From Kocuria rosea subsp. polaris (GTDB taxonomy: Bacteria > Actinomycetota > Actinomycetes > Actinomycetales > Micrococcaceae), in NCBI RefSeq assembly GCF_001483755.1, contig NZ_LQBK01000010.1, forward strand, positions 1-64,000: DNA of 64,000 nt, given 5' to 3'. The number at the start of each line of letters is the position of its first letter. The first letter of the stretch is position 1. Shown here piece by piece: positions 1 to 6,280 of this stretch. A program made the position numbers and the translations under genes. Under the pieces are notes generated by a model, which was not told the origin of the DNA, did no database searches, and saw only the letters and a list, made by a program, of their open reading frames with translations.

Positions 1-303
1 GAGCGCTTCCACGCCCACGACGCGCAGTTCCACATCCTGCTCGCGTCCCTGGCCGGCAACGTGGTGGTCGAGACGATCATGTCCTCGCTGCGCCAGGCCA
101 CCATCGGGTACGTCCAGGAGACGGTCGCCGGCCTCGACGACTGGCCGCAGGTCCGCCGCACGCTGCAGGAGCAGCACCGGGCCATCCTGCGCGCCACCCA
201 GGAGCGCCGCGGGGACGACGCCGCCGCCGCGCTGCGGCACCACATCACCTGGTTCTTCGGCCACAGTCCCGCCGCCCAGGAGGAGCACGGCCGGCAGCAC
301 TGA
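1..303 (+). CDS. GntR-family (FadR/FCD) transcriptional regulator, C-terminal part
   Basis: This is the end of a gene that begins before the window; the frame is open from base 1 to the TGA at 301-303. The visible 100 residues match the all-helical FCD ligand-binding domain of FadR-type GntR regulators: a FHAHDAQFH segment followed by LASLAGN, then helices ending in HRAILRATQERRGDDAAAALRHHI. His/Asp residues of this kind bind a metal or carboxylate effector in the family. The DNA-binding half is missing, so the target and ligand cannot be told. A strong terminator follows 74 bases later. Confidence 0.85.
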   Translation, partial: ERFHAHDAQFHILLASLAGNVVVETIMSSLRQATIGYVQETVAGLDDWPQVRRTLQEQHRAILRATQERRGDDAAAALRHHITWFFGHSPAAQEEHGRQH

Positions 304-376
304 ACGAACGGCCCCGGAACGCCATATCCCCGGCCCGGCCGGGGACGCCCCGGTGGACGCCCAGAAGGGCGCTGAA

Positions 377-422
377 CGCACGAGAGTGGCCGCACCGGTT
401 CCGGTGCGGCCGCTCTCGTGCG
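377..422 (+). terminator. Intrinsic terminator hairpin after the GntR gene
   Basis: A long inverted repeat with arms CGCACGAGAG and CTCTCGTGCG, plus an inner GGCCGCACCGG/CCGGTGCGGCC stem, lies 74 bases after the stop codon. There is no clear T-run, as is common in high-GC actinobacteria. Confidence 0.7.
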
Positions 423-745
423 TGGAGTCGCGGGGCAGAGGTTGCACGGTAGGGGGCCATCGGCCGAGGGGGGGTGCAAGGTGATCCAGGCCTTGCGCGG
501 CCGCATCCCGATCCAGGGGGGACTGTCCCGGGGCGGCCCCCTACCGTGAGCAGGTCGGTGGACCATCCGGTCCGGGGCTCGGCCTCATGGGGGGGGGGTT
601 GGGCCGTGCTCCGTGGGGATGTCTCTCACTCATCCACCGACTTTTCTTCTCTGCTCGCACTACTGATCATGCCGGGCTTGCCGATGCAGATGAATGCACT
701 TTCGTCTACAAGTGCGCTGGACTTCCGTCCGGATCCGGGGTGACG
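423..745. other. Gene-free stretch between convergent genes
   Basis: No convincing gene is seen here. It holds a run of ten G (589-598), a small GGACC/GGTCC hairpin (560-573) and a lower-GC segment at about 615-715. A weak hairpin GAGGTC/GACCTC at 746-762 overlaps the stop of the response regulator and may help end its transcript. Short open frames here lack a ribosome site and coding character. Confidence 0.5.
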
Positions 746-760
746 GAGGTCGGAGAGACC

Positions 761-1441
761 TCAGAGATCGCGCAGCTGCGGGTCCACGAGCCCGCTCTGG
801 TACGCCTTGATGAGCGCCTGGACGCGGTCGCGGACGCCGAACTTCTCACAGACCCGCCCGAGATAGGCCTTCACGCTGCCCTCGGAGACGTGCATCTGCT
901 CGGCGATCTCCCGGTTGCTCAACCCCTGCGCCAGGAGCGTCACGGTCTCCATCTCGCGGTCGGTCAGCAGGGAGCGCAGTCCGTCGTCGGCCGAGCGGGC
1001 CTGCTGCTGGTCCGGAACGGAGATGACGTTGTCCGCGAGCGCCCGCGCGATCGCCGGGGAGAGGGCGAGCTCGTCCTTGAGCACCTGGTTCACGGCGTCG
1101 ATGATCTCGTCCGGCCGGGCGTCCTTGACGAGGTAGCCGGCGGCACCGGCACGCAGTGCCGGCACCACGAACTCCAGAGTGGAGAACGTCGTGAGCGCCA
1201 GCACCTTGGACCGCGGGCTCCGCGAGGTGATCTCCCGGGTGGCCTCGATCCCGTCCATCACGGGCATCTTCATGTCCATCAGCACCACGTCCGGGTCGGC
1301 GGCCAGACATCGGTCGACGGCCTCGCGGCCGTTGGCCGCCGTCGCAATGACCTCGAACCCGGGCTCGGCCGAGAAGAAGGACTTCAGGGCCTCCAGCATC
1401 AACGGCTGGTCGTCCACGACAAGCACTCTGCAATCAGTCAC
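761..1441 (-). CDS. NarL/LuxR-family two-component response regulator
   Basis: A 226-residue regulator. Residues 1-120 form a receiver domain with the acidic pair D10/D11, phospho-acceptor D56 (VVLMDMKMP), a conserved Thr in ALTTF and Lys in VKDARP. Residues about 155-222 form a LuxR helix-turn-helix (LTDREMETVTLLAQGLSNRE). A GTG at 1447 is also in frame, but a TAGACT box at 1448-1453 sits exactly where a -10 element would put transcription start on the GTG at 1441, so I take the latter as a leaderless start; it also gives the usual length before the first acidic pair. The gene is divergent from the exported peptide and histidine kinase and is very probably the kinase's partner. The peptide promoter in the shared intergenic region is the obvious candidate target (inference). 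Confidence 0.93.
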   Translation of the reverse strand: MTDCRVLVVDDQPLMLEALKSFFSAEPGFEVIATAANGREAVDRCLAADPDVVLMDMKMPVMDGIEATREITSRSPRSKVLALTTFSTLEFVVPALRAGAAGYLVKDARPDEIIDAVNQVLKDELALSPAIARALADNVISVPDQQQARSADDGLRSLLTDREMETVTLLAQGLSNREIAEQMHVSEGSVKAYLGRVCEKFGVRDRVQALIKAYQSGLVDPQLRDL

Positions 1442-1447
1442 GCGCAC

Positions 1448-1453
1448 AGTCTA
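1448..1453 (-). promoter_or_regulatory. -10 box of the response regulator (leaderless start)
   Basis: TAGACT on the minus strand, six bases before the GTG at 1441, with a TTGCAC about 19 bases upstream. This is the usual geometry of actinobacterial leaderless transcripts and decides the start chosen for the regulator. Confidence 0.55.
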
Positions 1454-1661
1454 TTTTTCCGTGTCCCCCAAAGTGCAACACGTCATATTCGCCAAAAGTC
1501 ACAAATGGTCTGGACAAAGGTCGATAGGTTCGTTCGGTTAACGTTGGCAAAATGGAATGTACCAGGGCAGCACACCCCCCTCGCAGCCGGGACATCTCTC
1601 CCCCGCCCGGCTGCAATCCCCCCCGATCCGGTGCTGCTCTCGTGATCCAAGGAGCCCCCCC
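1454..1661. promoter_or_regulatory. Shared divergent regulatory region of the peptide/kinase/regulator locus
   Basis: A 208-base region of distinctly lower GC than its neighbours separates the regulator and the peptide gene. It contains CGTTCGGTTAACG (1531-1543, ends complementary, with a GTTAAC palindrome inside), AT-rich patches and no second gene. The peptide promoter could not be fixed: TAGGTT at 1526-1531 is the best -10-like match. The response regulator probably binds here (inference). Confidence 0.4.
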
Positions 1662-1817
1662 ATGTCCAAGAAGAAGCTGACCACCGCCATCGCCTCTGCC
1701 GCCCTCGCCGCGTCCTTCATCGTCGGCCCGGCAGCACCCGCCAACGCGTTGATGGTCCAGAAGCCCCAGGCCCCCGGTTACGTCATGTGCGGGTGGTTCC
1801 CGTTCCTCTGCCGATGA
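1662..1817 (+). CDS. Small secreted peptide precursor, candidate signalling peptide
   Basis: A 51-residue product starting at ATG 1662, eight bases after a CCAAGGAG ribosome site. Residues 1-29 are a textbook Sec signal peptide: basic KKK at 3-5, hydrophobic 8-22 and a PAAPANA cleavage motif. Predicted cleavage after Ala29 leaves 22 residues ending in a hydrophobic segment with two cysteines, C43-GWFPFL-C50, then Arg51. An eight-residue disulfide ring is therefore possible. No enzyme for lactone or thiolactone modification is nearby, so this is not a standard AgrD. The gene lies 24 bases before the histidine kinase and is divergent from its probable response regulator, which suggests an exported ligand sensed by that kinase. 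A small bacteriocin or an accessory kinase-binding peptide are alternatives. The gene call is well supported; the role is inference. Confidence 0.75.
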   Translation: MSKKKLTTAIASAALAASFIVGPAAPANALMVQKPQAPGYVMCGWFPFLCR

Positions 1818-1825
1818 TTTTTCCT

Positions 1826-1845
1826 CCAATGCGGTACATCATTGG
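1826..1845 (+). repeat. Inverted repeat between peptide stop and kinase start
   Basis: CCAATG at 1826-1831 and CATTGG at 1840-1845 form a six-pair stem with an eight-base loop; ATGAT/ATCAT just outside could form an alternative pairing. The right arm covers the TTG start of the kinase, which has no clear ribosome site, so the structure could set the peptide-to-kinase translation ratio. Confidence 0.4.
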
Positions 1846-3083
1846 GTGTGACTGACATAGCAACACTTTCAGAGCGACCACCGCGAACAGCTTCGAAGAC
1901 ATCGTTCTTCCAGGCCGAACCCATCGGCATGTGGCTGTCCGTGGTGGTCCTTCTGTATCCCGGCGTCATTCTGCTGACGCAGCTGCAGTACCTGTTCCAG
2001 CACTTTACGGGTGACGCCAACGCGGATCTGATGCTGGTTCTCGACGCGGTGCTCTCCTCTGCCGCCATCGGAATGGTCGCCTGGCGGTCCACCTACGCTT
2101 CGGCCGCCTCAGTGGCGTGCCTGGTCACGTCCCTCCTGGCGAACTATCAGGCCTCCGCCATCGTCACCGTCTTCGTGGTGACGGCCGCGGTGGCGGCCAC
2201 CGCGACCAGGAAGTTCCTCGTCGTTCACCTGTTCGTCTACTTCGCCTGGGCGGTCGCCGCCGCCACGTTCCACGGCCCGTTCGACTCCCCCCTCTTCTGG
2301 TTCACCTTCAACGGACTGCTCGTGGCCACCCTGGTGGGTTCCACGGTCAGGTACTTCCAGGGGCAGCGTCGCAAGAGCGAGGAGCGAGTCCGGGACCTGG
2401 AGGTCCTCAACGAGCGGCTCCGGGAGGACGAGCGGCAGGCGCTGGCCCGCGACCTGCACGACGTCGTCGCCCACGAGCTCACCCTCATCACGATGCAGAC
2501 CATGAGCCGGCGCCGATCAGGCAATGTCGGCGAGCTGCACCAGGTCCTCGAGACCGTCGAGGACGCCGCGCGCTCGGCCCTGCACGAGCTGCGGGTGATG
2601 CTGCGACTGCTGCGCAACGAGAACGAGGGCGAGCACCCGCGGGACGTCACGGGCGCCGGCCTGGCCATCGGCAGCCTGGAGCACGTGGTCACGTCGCTGG
2701 CGGCGAGCCTGCGGGACCTGCGCTTCGAACCGGGCGTGGTCCTCACCGGGGACCTCGAGGCCATGCCCACCACCGTGCGCGGCACGGCCGCCCGCATCCT
2801 GCAGGAGTCCGTCACCAACATCATCAAGTACGCCCCGCGTGGGTCCGGCTGCCGGATCGAGGTGGCGGCGGACGAGCACGAGCTGCGCCTGCGCGTGCTG
2901 AACCCCATGCCGCGCAGCCACCAGCGCACGGGCAACCACTCCTCGGAGCTGTCCTCGGGGCTCGGTCTGCGGGGCATCACGGAGCGCGTGTCTCTGCTCG
3001 GCGGCCGCGCCGAGAGCGGACAGCAGGACGGGCAGTGGGTCCTCGACGTGTGCCTGCCCGTGGACGGCCGGGACGCCCTGTGA
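1842..3083 (+). CDS. Two-component sensor histidine kinase, six membrane helices
   Basis: A 413-residue HisKA_3-type kinase. Residues about 31-170 form six hydrophobic segments (near 31-51, 62-82, 86-102, 104-122, 125-143, 150-170) joined by very short loops, so there is no sizeable external sensor domain; the ligand must be met within the membrane or at short loops, as in AgrC-like peptide receptors. A coiled linker follows, then the dimerisation/phospho-acceptor motif DLHDVVAHE with His206, then a HATPase_c domain (N-box TNIIKYA with Asn326; G-box SSGLGLRGI at 371-379). No ribosome site is seen: TTG 1842 gives this length, and GTG 1848 is an equally possible start two codons in. It lies just after the peptide gene and overlaps the next gene by GTGA. 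It is the likely partner of the regulator at 761-1441. Confidence 0.92.
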   Translation: MGVTDIATLSERPPRTASKTSFFQAEPIGMWLSVVVLLYPGVILLTQLQYLFQHFTGDANADLMLVLDAVLSSAAIGMVAWRSTYASAASVACLVTSLLANYQASAIVTVFVVTAAVAATATRKFLVVHLFVYFAWAVAAATFHGPFDSPLFWFTFNGLLVATLVGSTVRYFQGQRRKSEERVRDLEVLNERLREDERQALARDLHDVVAHELTLITMQTMSRRRSGNVGELHQVLETVEDAARSALHELRVMLRLLRNENEGEHPRDVTGAGLAIGSLEHVVTSLAASLRDLRFEPGVVLTGDLEAMPTTVRGTAARILQESVTNIIKYAPRGSGCRIEVAADEHELRLRVLNPMPRSHQRTGNHSSELSSGLGLRGITERVSLLGGRAESGQQDGQWVLDVCLPVDGRDAL

Positions 3084-3421
3084 CCCGGCGGGCCGAGCCG
3101 GACCCCGGCCTGGCGCGGCGCGTGGCGGACGTCGTCGCCGGGATCCCTCCGGGCCGGGTGCTGTCCTACCGGGACGTCGCGGAGCTGGCCGAGTGCCGCT
3201 CGCCGCGGGTGGTGGGCACCGTCATGGCGCGCAATCCGACCGGCCAGGAGCTGCCGTGGTGGCGGGTGGTCACCGTGAAGGGCACCCTCGCCGACCACCT
3301 CCAGGCCGAGGCCCGGGTCCGGTACCGGGACGAGGGCACGCCCCTGCGCGAGGACGACCGGCACCTCGTGCGCGTGGACATGGGTCGCGCGCTGTGGACC
3401 CCAGATCCCTCCGGCGGGTAG
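3080..3421 (+). CDS. Alkyltransferase-like (ATL) / MGMT DNA-binding domain protein
   Basis: A 113-residue protein starting at a GTG that overlaps the kinase stop (GTGA), so it is probably translationally coupled. It matches the C-terminal DNA-binding domain of O6-methylguanine methyltransferases: IPPGRVLSYRDVAELAE, then SPRVVGTVMARNP, then PWWRVV at 59-64. The usual methyl-acceptor motif is PCHRV. Here both Cys and His are Trp, whereas well-known ATL proteins keep PWHRV. It cannot be an alkyltransferase and, like other ATL proteins, may flag alkylated bases for nucleotide excision repair. Its place in the two-component operon is unexplained. Confidence 0.8.
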   Translation: MTRRAEPDPGLARRVADVVAGIPPGRVLSYRDVAELAECRSPRVVGTVMARNPTGQELPWWRVVTVKGTLADHLQAEARVRYRDEGTPLREDDRHLVRVDMGRALWTPDPSGG

Positions 3422-3502
3422 CTGCCGTTCCGCGCACCGGATCGGAGCCCAGGACCCGCACCCGAGGAACCAGTGCTCGCGCGCTGGGCCGCGCGCTCCG
3501 GC

Positions 3503-4483
3503 TCAGAAGTCCAGCGGGCCGGCCACCTCGAAGAACTTGCCGTCCGGGTCGAAGGTCCTGCCGGTGAGCCGCTCGAACGCCTCGACGTAGCGCGCGCGGG
3601 TCCGTTCCACCACCTGCTCCGGCAGCGGGGGCACGGGGCCGGTCCCGTTCCAGCCGGACTCGTCGGAGCGCAACCAGTCCCGCACGTACTGCTTGTCGAA
3701 GGAGGGCTGGGCCTGGCCCGGCTCGTAGGTCTCGGCGTCCCAGAAGCGGGAGGAGTCGGGGGTGAGCACCTCGTCCCCGAGGGTGATCGCGCCGCGGTAG
3801 GAGTCCAGTCCGAACTCCACCTTGGTGTCGGCCACGATGATCCCCCGCTCGCGGGCGATCCGCTCGGCGGCGCTGTAGATCTCCAGGGTCAGCTCGCGCA
3901 GCCGGTCGGCCACCGCGTGGCCGACCCCGTCGGCCATCTCCTGGAACGTGATGGGCAGGTCGTGCTCCCCCACCTCCGCCTTGCCGGTCGGGGTGAAGAT
4001 CGGCTGCTCCAGCCGGGAGCCGTCCACGAGCCCGGGCGGCAGCGCGATCCCGCACACCTCGCCGGTCTCCCGGTAGTCCTTGAGCCCGGATCCGGTCAGG
4101 TAGCCTCGGGCGATGCACTCGACGGGGAACATGGACAGGTTCTTGCACACGACGGCGCGCCCGCGCACGGACTCGTGCACGTCGGTCGACAGGACGTGGT
4201 TGGGCACGCCCGCGAGCTGCTCGAACCACCACAGGGACAGCTGCGTCAGGATCTTGCCCTTGTCCGGGATCTCCGTGGGGAGGATCTCGTCGAACGCGCT
4301 GATCCGGTCCGTGGCCAGCACCAGGACCGAGCCGGCCCGGTACTCGGCGTCGTCGTAGATGGCCACCCCCGTGGCCCGCAGCCGCGACTCGTCGGGAACG
4401 TAGAGCTCCCGGACCTTGCCGGAGTAGATGTGCGTCCACCCGGGGATCTCCGGAGGCGTGCTGACGGTGCCCTGCTCGGTCAT
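3503..4483 (-). CDS. purC: Phosphoribosylaminoimidazole-succinocarboxamide synthase
   Basis: SAICAR synthase, 326 residues: ATP-dependent condensation of CAIR with aspartate in purine synthesis, cytosolic. Recognised by IYSGKVRELY near residue 20, then ATDRISAFDEILPTEIPDKG, SRLEQPIFTPTGKAE and VLTPDSSRFW. It is slightly longer than the bacterial norm because of about 20 extra residues (about 31-52) before the ATDRISAF motif, a feature common in actinobacteria and fungi. ATG 4483 overlaps the purD stop (ATGA), so the two are one transcription and translation unit with purD first. Confidence 0.97.
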   Translation of the reverse strand: MTEQGTVSTPPEIPGWTHIYSGKVRELYVPDESRLRATGVAIYDDAEYRAGSVLVLATDRISAFDEILPTEIPDKGKILTQLSLWWFEQLAGVPNHVLSTDVHESVRGRAVVCKNLSMFPVECIARGYLTGSGLKDYRETGEVCGIALPPGLVDGSRLEQPIFTPTGKAEVGEHDLPITFQEMADGVGHAVADRLRELTLEIYSAAERIARERGIIVADTKVEFGLDSYRGAITLGDEVLTPDSSRFWDAETYEPGQAQPSFDKQYVRDWLRSDESGWNGTGPVPPLPEQVVERTRARYVEAFERLTGRTFDPDGKFFEVAGPLDF

Positions 4484-5802
4484 GCCTGCTCCTGACGGGG
4501 TCGGGGATCGGAGGCGCCGGGGACGGTGACGAGGCCCCGGGCTGCCTTCAGCGCGATGTCGGTGCGGTGCTGGGAGCCCTCGAGCGCCACGAGCCCCACG
4601 CCCCGGTACGCGCGCTCGCGGGCGTCGTGGAGGTCGGCCCCGAGGCCGACGACGGCGAGCACGCGCCCGCCGGCGGAGACGATCCGCCCGGCATGCTCGC
4701 CCTCGCGGGCCACGGCGGTGCCGGCGTGGACCACGTGCACGCCCTCGAGGGCCTCCGCCTCCTCCAGTCCGCCGATCGGATCGCCCTTCCGGGGGCTGTC
4801 CGGGTAGTCCTGCGCGGCGACCACCACGGCGACGGCCGTCTCGGGCCGCCAGCGCAGCCGCTCCGCCTCGTCGAGGCGACCGGCCGCGGCGTCCCGCAGG
4901 AGCCGTCCGAGCGGAGTGGTGAGCCGGGCCAGCACGGCCTGGGTCTCGGGATCCCCGAAACGGGCGTTGAACTCGATGACCCGCAGGCCGCGGGTGGTCA
5001 CGGCCAGCCCGCAGTACAGCACGCCCACGAACGGGGTGCCCCGGCGGCGCATCTCGTCGACCGTGGGGCGGGCCACCCGCTCCACGACCTCGTCCACGAA
5101 GCCCTGCGGCAGCCACGGCAGCGGCGTATAGGCGCCCATGCCGCCGGTGTTGGGGCCCTCGTCGTCGTCGTGGATCCGCTTGAAGTCCTGGGCGGGGCTC
5201 AGCGGGATCACGCGGGAGCCGTCGGTGAGCACGAACAGGGACACCTCGGGGCCGTCGAGGAACTCCTCGACCACCACGCTCCCGCCCGCGGCGAAGCACG
5301 CGGCGGCGTGCTCGAGCGCGGCCGCGCGGTCGGAGGTGACGACCACGCCCTTGCCGGCGGCGAGCCCGTCGTCCTTGACGACGTACGGGGCGCCGAAGGT
5401 GTCGAGGGCGTCGGCGGCCTCCTCCTCCGTGCCGGCGACCCGCGCCATCGCGGTGGGCACCCCGGCGGCGGCCATGACCTCCTTGGCGAACGCCTTGGAG
5501 CCCTCGAGCCGCGCGGCGGCCCGCGAGGGACCGAAGACGAGGAAGCCGGCCTCGCGCAGGGCGTCGGCCACGCCGGCCACCAGCGGGGCCTCGGGCCCGA
5601 CGACGACGAGGTCCACCGCGAGCTCGCGCGCGAGCGCGGTGGCCGAGGCGGGGTCGTCGGCGTCCACGGCGTGCACGGGGACGAGCTGGGCGATCCCGGC
5701 GTTGCCCGGCGCACAGTGCACCTGCGCGACCTCGGGGTCCGCCAGCAGTGCGCGGATGATTGCGTGTTCGCGGCCTCCGGGGCCCAGTACCAGAACCTTC
5801 AC
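4480..5802 (-). CDS. purD: Phosphoribosylamine-glycine ligase (GAR synthetase)
   Basis: A 440-residue ATP-grasp enzyme joining phosphoribosylamine and glycine. The N-domain begins with LVLGPGGREHAII; the ATP-grasp region carries PYVVKDDGLAAGKGVVV; the metal-binding FNARFGDPETQAVL follows. The GTG at 5802 is chosen because it sits at the first residues of the Rossmann strand and six bases after a TAGCCT box (5809-5814), consistent with a leaderless transcript. A second perfect TATAAT lies at 5869-5874. purD leads purC and shares their operon; purF and purM lie in a separate plus-strand cluster 2.4 kb away. Confidence 0.97.
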   Translation of the reverse strand: MKVLVLGPGGREHAIIRALLADPEVAQVHCAPGNAGIAQLVPVHAVDADDPASATALARELAVDLVVVGPEAPLVAGVADALREAGFLVFGPSRAAARLEGSKAFAKEVMAAAGVPTAMARVAGTEEEAADALDTFGAPYVVKDDGLAAGKGVVVTSDRAAALEHAAACFAAGGSVVVEEFLDGPEVSLFVLTDGSRVIPLSPAQDFKRIHDDDEGPNTGGMGAYTPLPWLPQGFVDEVVERVARPTVDEMRRRGTPFVGVLYCGLAVTTRGLRVIEFNARFGDPETQAVLARLTTPLGRLLRDAAAGRLDEAERLRWRPETAVAVVVAAQDYPDSPRKGDPIGGLEEAEALEGVHVVHAGTAVAREGEHAGRIVSAGGRVLAVVGLGADLHDARERAYRGVGLVALEGSQHRTDIALKAARGLVTVPGASDPRPRQEQA

Positions 5803-5808
5803 GCCCTC

Positions 5809-5814
5809 AGGCTA
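5809..5814 (-). promoter_or_regulatory. Proximal -10 box of purD
   Basis: TAGCCT on the minus strand, six bases before the purD GTG, the position expected of a leaderless transcript. No strong -35 is seen. Confidence 0.4.
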
Positions 5815-5868
5815 GTTGGCGGCAGCGGCTTCTGACACATCGATGCCCCCGCCGCAGGCCAACCCTCT

Positions 5869-5874
5869 ATTATA
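5869..5874 (-). promoter_or_regulatory. Consensus -10 hexamer upstream of purDC
   Basis: A perfect TATAAT on the minus strand, 67 bases before the purD start, in an otherwise high-GC gap. The -35 region is weak, so activation or an alternative spacing may apply. It offers a second, leadered purDC transcript. Confidence 0.45.
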
Positions 5875-5971
5875 GGTAAGCACCCTGACGATGTGCTCAC
5901 AGTTCCCGTGCCCCGCCGACGTCCTCGGACATCTTCGCTGGTGAGCCCGGCCACCGGCCTACCGTGGAGGA

Positions 5972-6280
5972 ATGAACAGGCAGCGACGACTCACAGCAGC
6001 ATCCGCCGCAGCGGTCCTGGGCCTCTTCCTGGCCGGCTGCGACAACACCGACAACTCCGGGACGGAGGCGCCGCCCGAGGCTCCGGCCGAGACGGCTCCC
6101 GCGACCATCCTGGACCAGTCCGGGCCGGCCTCCGCCCCCACCGCGGAGCAGACCGGCATGGGCGACGACGCCACGACCGACACGGGCGCCGAGGGCACTG
6201 CCCCCGAGGGCGACGCGGGCGACGCCGGCGGCGCGGGCACCGGGGCGGACACCGACGCCGAGGCCGGCACCGACAACTGA
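5972..6280 (+). CDS. Small acidic secreted lipoprotein
   Basis: 102 residues. A short lipoprotein signal peptide ends in the lipobox LAGC (Cys24); the remainder is low-complexity Glu/Ala/Thr/Gly/Asp with no fold I can name. GGAGG stands directly before ATG 5972 and TACCGT (5960-5965) could serve as a -10 box. It lies in the gap between the divergent pur clusters and reads towards the asparaginase gene. Its function is unknown; composition alone suggests a flexible surface-anchored tail. Confidence 0.75.
   Translation: MNRQRRLTAASAAAVLGLFLAGCDNTDNSGTEAPPEAPAETAPATILDQSGPASAPTAEQTGMGDDATTDTGAEGTAPEGDAGDAGGAGTGADTDAEAGTDN

Follow-up and report, generated by a model that had tools for sequence, protein, structure and literature searches.

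At the start of a 64,000-nucleotide stretch of the Kocuria rosea subsp. polaris genome (NCBI RefSeq assembly GCF_001483755.1, contig NZ_LQBK01000010.1, positions 1 to 64,000 of the forward strand; hereafter the window), a gene for a small two-cysteine peptide lies between those of a response regulator and a sensor kinase. The peptide gene comprises 51 codons plus the stop (1662..1817, + strand; ATG at 1662, TGA at 1815-1817), translates as MSKKKLTTAIASAALAASFIVGPAAPANALMVQKPQAPGYVMCGWFPFLCR and is preceded by a ribosome-binding site, AAGGAG (1649..1654, + strand), read from the sequence 7 nt 5' of the ATG. Its product runs from a basic N-terminus through a hydrophobic core to PANA, followed by 22 residues with a C-GWFPFL-C-R end. 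The first portion (1662..1748, + strand) reads as a Sec-type signal peptide ending in PANA, with predicted cleavage after residue 29, and the C-GWFPFL-C core (1788..1811, + strand), which has a Trp in its ring, is a predicted eight-residue disulfide loop whose pattern is common to relatives. An earlier reading of this DNA, made without database searches (the sequence-only reading), had described a 51-codon gene with a perfect ribosome site, encoding a Sec signal peptide and this 22-residue remainder, and we confirmed each of these features from the sequence.

The gene downstream (P0002; 1848..3083, + strand) encodes a HisKA_3 sensor kinase with a polytopic N-terminal sensor region, matching Pfam HisKA_3 (E 4.9e-12) and HATPase_c (E 1.6e-5; 25.7 bits, slightly below the 26.4 cut-off). 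Divergent from it is a NarL/LuxR-type response regulator (P0003; 761..1447, - strand) with Response_reg (E 3.9e-30) and GerE (E 7.3e-17) domains, so that domains and coordinates both bear out the flanking pair named in the sequence-only reading. Kinase and regulator are members of ordinary families; the solved structures that match the kinase are DesK-type kinases only, across the H-box region, and no plasmid carries a match to it at E <= 1e-20. The kinase start is ambiguous by two codons (GTG at 1848 or TTG at 1842), and the 24-base gap reported between peptide and kinase holds for the TTG start. The same reading gave the kinase six helices: its polytopic nature stands, and the count is softer, since simple hydropathy gives five clear membrane segments and leaves six plausible but unsettled. 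Over the 65 peptide-bearing kinases described below, the same method gives five segments in 34, six in 28 and four in 3.

The window peptide matches no family in Pfam or NCBIfam, and ten diverse peptides from relatives gave only weak listings there, all below curated cut-offs. A strict scan for open reading frames (ORFs) of this kind covered 464 kb of the source genome, made up of the window and twenty 20-kb pieces of a single contig, and gave two matches: the window peptide itself and one that we judge spurious. A second copy of the peptide was also sought in the source genome; the sole other match (contig C15, E 0.73) lies in a frame without leader or cysteines and was rejected.

When 27 Kocuria genomes were searched with the peptide alone, 14 of them, the source genome included, matched at E <= 0.1 in 15 places, 14 of which sit between a kinase and a regulator; the fifteenth (L016) is a longer, unrelated protein. 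The kinase search in these genomes gave 67 places, 44 of which were examined. The orthologous kinase (E <= 7.7e-66; next place 5e-40) occurs in 19 of the 27 genomes, and directly upstream of it a Sec-type C-x6-C ORF is found in all 19. Different kinases with different two-cysteine peptides were found in G017, G019, G020 and G022, and at least one cassette is present in 23 of the 27 genomes; in G003, G009, G010 and G015 the best kinase place, the sole place examined in each, showed no such peptide. Seven genomes (G001, G004, G005, G013, G017, G018 and G022) hold two cassettes with unlike rings, such as CKWWPVFC and CGFLFLRWC in G004. Nine loci come from named relatives, and four of these are close relatives. 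Among the names are Kocuria dechangensis, K. rosea, an uncultured Kocuria and a Citricoccus metagenome-assembled genome, the last with a peptide ending in VVCHWWSFFC. Two kinase matches, L032 (G011:C22) and G027:C1:580537-581667, contain one in-frame TGA each and are perhaps decayed copies or sequencing errors.

The sequence-only reading had proposed searching related Micrococcaceae for small signal-peptide genes between HisKA_3 kinases and LuxR regulators, and these were indeed found in several genera. Across the family, 57 of 395 genomes (own genus included) carry the kinase at E <= 1e-36, and all listed places except one (G185) were examined. A profile of 34 kinases (A2) was then used over 396 genomes of the order, where 21 genomes matched at E <= 1e-60 in 24 places, and over 394 genomes of the class, where ten matched at E <= 1e-55 and six places were new. 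Besides other Micrococcaceae genera, two-cysteine peptides occur in five families, four within the order (f3, f11, f13 and f17) and one outside it (f57); the f17 case (L142) is weak, with a leader in which no cleavage motif was detected. The six new kinase loci beyond the order are themselves weak: the pattern found a two-cysteine ORF at none of them, and L159 has one by ORF listing, missed by the pattern because of its nine-residue tail.

Once duplicates (L134, L058, L059, L060, L047, L136 and L137) had been dropped from 109 loci, 102 remained, with L159 kept outside the table. Under one relaxed rule, a two-cysteine ORF with a hydrophobic leader lies just upstream of the kinase at 65 of these 102 loci. 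Among equally sized control windows, this rule fired in 5 of 1070 from the source genome (taken from both strands of the window and of 400 kb on one contig, with the peptide itself excluded) and in 3 of 680 around the cassettes of relatives. The regulator is divergent at 61 of the 65 peptide-bearing loci. Where a divergent regulator is combined with a gap of at least 230 nt, the peptide is present at 60 of 64 loci (missing from L041, L151, L153 and L154), and with a narrower gap at one of ten. It is found at none of the 22 loci in which the regulator lies downstream on the same strand, the arrangement of classical kinase-regulator operons. With the regulator upstream on the same strand, all three wide-gap loci and neither of the two narrow-gap loci have a peptide, as does the only locus with no regulator in the stretch (L025, at a contig start). 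On a tree of the catalytic halves, in which 98 of the 102 loci are represented (four peptide-less rows were too short) and several long branches leave parts unsure, explaining the peptide label takes 7 changes, of which well-supported branches force at least 4, and shuffled labels take 27.7; the pairing of peptide and kinase is therefore old and has been gained or lost more than once.

Looser rules applied to some of the peptide-less loci (L055 and others) found no two-cysteine leader peptide. Nine loci of genus g12 (L055, L072, L076-L078, L082, L083, L097 and L098) have a divergent regulator but leave a gap of only about 130-225 nt, in which we found no peptide; these relatives of peptide-bearing kinases have lost the peptide or never gained it. 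At L151 and L154 (f19, g59) a cysteine-free stretch, NRFETLQEVNLMGIFY(V/I)FGKMIGIFR, lies upstream of the kinase on the kinase strand, in the place of the two-cysteine peptide and with the regulator divergent. Shared by two species, it is possibly another type of ligand.

Substitution patterns indicate that the peptide gene is under purifying selection. In the closest pair, the source genome and G021, nine nucleotide differences in the gene leave the protein identical. The ratio of nonsynonymous to synonymous change (dN/dS) was 0.02-0.60, and thus below 1, in all 17 pairs compared, which were hand-chosen among close relatives and include some ORFs taken from the earliest start; pooled over the core, from four residues before the first cysteine to the end, the synonymous proportion (pS) was 0.30 and the nonsynonymous (pN) 0.06. 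Mean identity in genus g22 is 0.85 for the leader, 0.85 for the core and 0.58 for the linker, and in the window's own group 0.73, 0.51 and 0.34, respectively. The sequence-only reading had held that its proposal would fall if the peptide ORF evolved neutrally or were not conserved in relatives that keep the kinase, and neither pattern was seen.

Among 66 peptides (the 65 and that of L159), six residues separate the two cysteines in 53, five in 7, seven in 3 and nine in 3, under a search that took the cysteine pair as a criterion and permitted four to ten residues between them. Of the 53 six-residue rings, 24 have Gly and 23 have Pro at position 4 (47 of 53). Such a turn residue, set among the aromatic and aliphatic residues of a short loop, is compatible with a closed ring, and closure is our reading of this pattern. 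A simple rule, which in many cases settles on an adjacent site, found an AxA/VxA cleavage motif in 59 of the 66 peptides, and many leaders end in PAQA, PANA or PAHA.

We then compared the rings with the kinases beside them. Within the window's group (eight loci), the sensor half is far more diverged than the catalytic half (0.53 versus 0.92 identity for L017/L019). In two pairs both members have the same ring: the sensors of L017/L018 are 0.94 alike, and those of L022/L023 are 0.68 alike at a catalytic identity of 0.82. Apart from L020/L021 (0.65, rings GWFPVF and KWWPVF), the remaining window-group pairs lie at 0.40-0.56. The median ratio of sensor to catalytic divergence is 2.31 over 171 peptide-bearing pairs, compared with 1.39 over 36 pairs without a peptide. 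Given catalytic distance, the partial rank correlation between ring and sensor distance is 0.32 over 65 loci and 0.47 over the 30 Kocuria loci, with none of 2000 permutations as high in either set, and the reverse partial, ring against catalytic distance given the sensor, is 0.11 and 0.23, respectively. By these comparisons the rings differ from group to group, and their variation tracks that of the fast-evolving sensor region, though imperfectly.

The surroundings of the cassettes were compared over twenty 20-kb regions and the first 12 kb of the window, with ORFs of at least 90 amino acids clustered into families. The kinase recurs in 21 of the 21 regions and the regulator in 19, and any other family in at most five. 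The families found in four or five regions adjoin the one Kocuria site on the chromosome (purD and others); a few of those found in three span clades, one of which we take to be SDR-like, another glycine-decarboxylase-like, and one of unclear kind. No ComQ-like gene recurs beside the cassettes in these clustered surroundings, for which no ComQ profile search was made. AgrB (PF04647) has no match in the source genome at E <= 0.001, a search whose power is undemonstrated as none of 14 control genomes passed the cut-off, and Peptidase_C39 (PF03412), which matches in 8 of 14 control genomes, has none in the source genome either. Single loci may hold processing genes, as the surrounding regions are unannotated. 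The source genome does encode a VKOR-family disulfide catalyst (E 7e-39).

Taken together, we consider that the locus is probably a self-contained three-gene cassette for pheromone signalling by a disulfide-ring peptide. The pre-peptide would leave the cell via the Sec pathway and be cut by an ordinary signal peptidase, after which its two C-terminal cysteines would close the eight-residue loop in the oxidising exterior (a VKOR-type disulfide catalyst is encoded in the genome); in relatives with long linkers the loop is probably trimmed further. The downstream HisKA_3 kinase would recognise the loop, presumably an activating ligand, through its membrane-embedded sensor region and pass the signal to the divergent NarL-type regulator. 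The regulator, in turn, most likely acts at the intergenic promoter shared by the genes as well as on further targets. We favour a peptide-sensing circuit because the peptide is linked to a divergent regulator, ring and sensor covary, and no processing gene recurs in the surroundings compared. The peptide-pheromone circuit of the sequence-only reading has thus survived as far as conservation and selection are concerned; activation by the peptide, the oxidised ring and a regulator that drives its own locus are steps that we, too, infer. A three-gene cassette with differing peptides across relatives suggests a little-studied route of communication between bacterial cells.

Several observations weigh against this interpretation. 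The match of ring and sensor is not strict, because L017 and L020 have similar rings and sensors only 0.54 alike; conversely, the sensors of L020 and L021 are 0.65 alike and their rings, GWFPVF and KWWPVF, differ. The pairs compared are non-independent, and shared ancestry, left in by the permutations, is also a source of covariation. In the peptide core, nonsynonymous differences outnumber synonymous ones by count in 5 of the 17 pairs (L024/L027, L033/L034, L069/L071, L051/L053 and L049/L050). Four wide-gap and nine narrow-gap loci with a divergent regulator lack such a peptide, and the 230-nt cut was set after the gaps had been inspected. The similarity searches that supplied the loci started from the window kinase or from a profile of kinases with a peptide and thus favoured peptide-bearing kinases. 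Many loci are also closely related, 19 belonging to the Kocuria orthologue group and 13 to a single genus, and 65 of 102 is therefore neither a natural frequency nor a count of independent events. Finally, a regulon search with the conserved 12-base promoter block CTGGACAAAGGT gave nothing above background, with one exact and six one-mismatch matches genome-wide against five for the reversed control.

The main rival, which we regard as possible but not likely, is that the peptide is no signal between cells and remains cell-bound, at the membrane or surface, as an accessory regulator or redox probe, its cysteine pair reporting envelope oxidation to the kinase. Small exported or membrane proteins do act on sensor kinases: MgrB is a membrane-held inhibitor of PhoQ, and HbpS is a larger redox-stress protein. 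The secreted HbpS of Streptomyces is described together with the kinase SenS and the regulator SenR (PMC4991794). The cassette peptide differs from both in being short, variable and two-cysteine. This rival fits the position of the peptide, which always adjoins the kinase where found, the want of a widely recurring exporter or effector gene, the constancy of the two cysteines (also the search criterion) and the VKOR gene in the genome. The many leaders ending in PAQA, PANA or PAHA, however, argue for cleavage and release; strong ring differences between groups and their covariation with the sensor would be needless for a plain redox probe, and the unlike rings of the seven two-cassette Kocuria genomes speak against it as well.

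It is improbable that the peptide is instead a small bacteriocin or other effector controlled by the adjoining two-component system. Bacteriocin induction peptides are typified by a double-glycine leader and a C39-type ABC exporter. In induction systems of the SppIP-SppK-SppR type, peptide, kinase and regulator are encoded together, as in our cassette, in loci that include an ABC transporter, and class IIa bacteriocin loci can have all three genes (PMC3546714). Unlike the peptides of those systems, the window peptide has a Sec-type leader, which ends in PANA, and the source genome, as noted above, has no Peptidase_C39 match. In favour of an effector, the window peptide is small, hydrophobic, probably exported and two-cysteine. 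Against it, genes of an immunity or transport kind do not recur from one clade to another, the genes that follow in the window encode a methylguanine methyltransferase, PurC and PurD (an FCD-domain gene is cut by the contig start), and covariation with the sensor would be unexpected for a mere output. Small ORFs are common at such GC content, but a chance ORF without a product is almost certainly not what we see here, the control scans, the identical protein of the closest pair and the dN/dS values all being strongly against it.

The pheromone cassette resembles known peptide-signalling systems in part. ComX of the Bacillus ComQXPA system needs the prenyl transferase ComQ and is modified on a Trp. 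As there, a small peptide gene adjoins a polytopic HisKA_3-type kinase and a NarL/LuxR-type regulator, and the peptide is conserved and co-diverges with its sensor, imperfectly in our data and with ancestry not fully removed; unlike ComQXPA, Kocuria-type cassettes come without a widely recurring third gene and have a Sec-type leader, two constant cysteines and a usually divergent regulator. With the Agr and Fsr systems of cyclic autoinducing peptides they share a polytopic kinase, a fast-evolving sensor region and, if the loop closes as predicted, a short ring peptide. Agr, however, relies on AgrB to form a thiolactone or lactone, and its kinase is of a different class (AgrC) and works with a LytTR regulator, whereas the cassette has HisKA_3 and GerE instead, together with a two-cysteine core and a Sec-type leader, and the source genome gave no AgrB match.

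The open-access literature, a scope that leaves out most subscription papers and bioRxiv preprints, yielded no description of such a cassette. The pairing of an ordinary kinase and regulator with an apparently enzyme-free two-cysteine peptide seems to be new, and peptide signalling in Actinomycetota seems thinly described. We lean towards the view that Actinomycetota hold an undescribed class of peptide quorum sensing, in which a usually divergent NarL regulator, a Sec-exported pre-peptide and a polytopic HisKA_3 kinase would operate through a disulfide loop. The usual form of the loop would be C-x-x-hydrophobic-(Pro/Gly)-x-hydrophobic-C, and its production would call for neither an enzyme nor an exporter of its own; ring types would be many, and some genomes would have two separate channels. 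If so, a compact cassette relying on housekeeping secretion alone would give a density-sensing channel. The idea is directly testable because genomes reveal the sequences of the ligands, which can then be synthesised chemically, and the seven two-cassette Kocuria genomes would permit tests of channel insulation.

The intergenic region (1448..1661), which presumably holds divergent promoters and the 5' leader of the peptide gene, combines low GC with blocks conserved over eight loci. The sequence-only reading had called it unusually AT-rich, rightly so: GC is 0.53 in 1401-1600, and among the 200-base intervals of 1-6000 only 1801-2000 (0.55) comes close, the others lying at 0.60-0.81. Simple consensus searches of 1400-1900 found no sigma-70-like promoters or terminators. 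The block CTGGACAAAGGT (1510..1521, + strand), a candidate regulator or promoter element, is identical in seven Kocuria loci and Citricoccus and has one exact copy in the source genome, at the peptide locus; a second conserved block, TTGGCAAAAT (1544..1553, + strand), is similar to the first in the alignment of the eight loci. Conservation of the promoter block is compatible with autoregulation rather than a demonstration of it. A possible leader hairpin (1565..1639, + strand) was also seen in the eight aligned leaders, with GGGCAGCAC (1565-1573) pairing with GTGCTGCTC (1631-1639) in a nine-pair outer stem that is kept in most of the loci and ends just 5' of the ribosome site; two pairs are altered on both sides, and the covariation term for the whole fold is unfavourable (+0.16). 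In a second Kocuria group (L024-L035), the outermost possible starts of regulator and peptide are about 12 bases apart, and the true starts or promoters therefore probably lie further inside.

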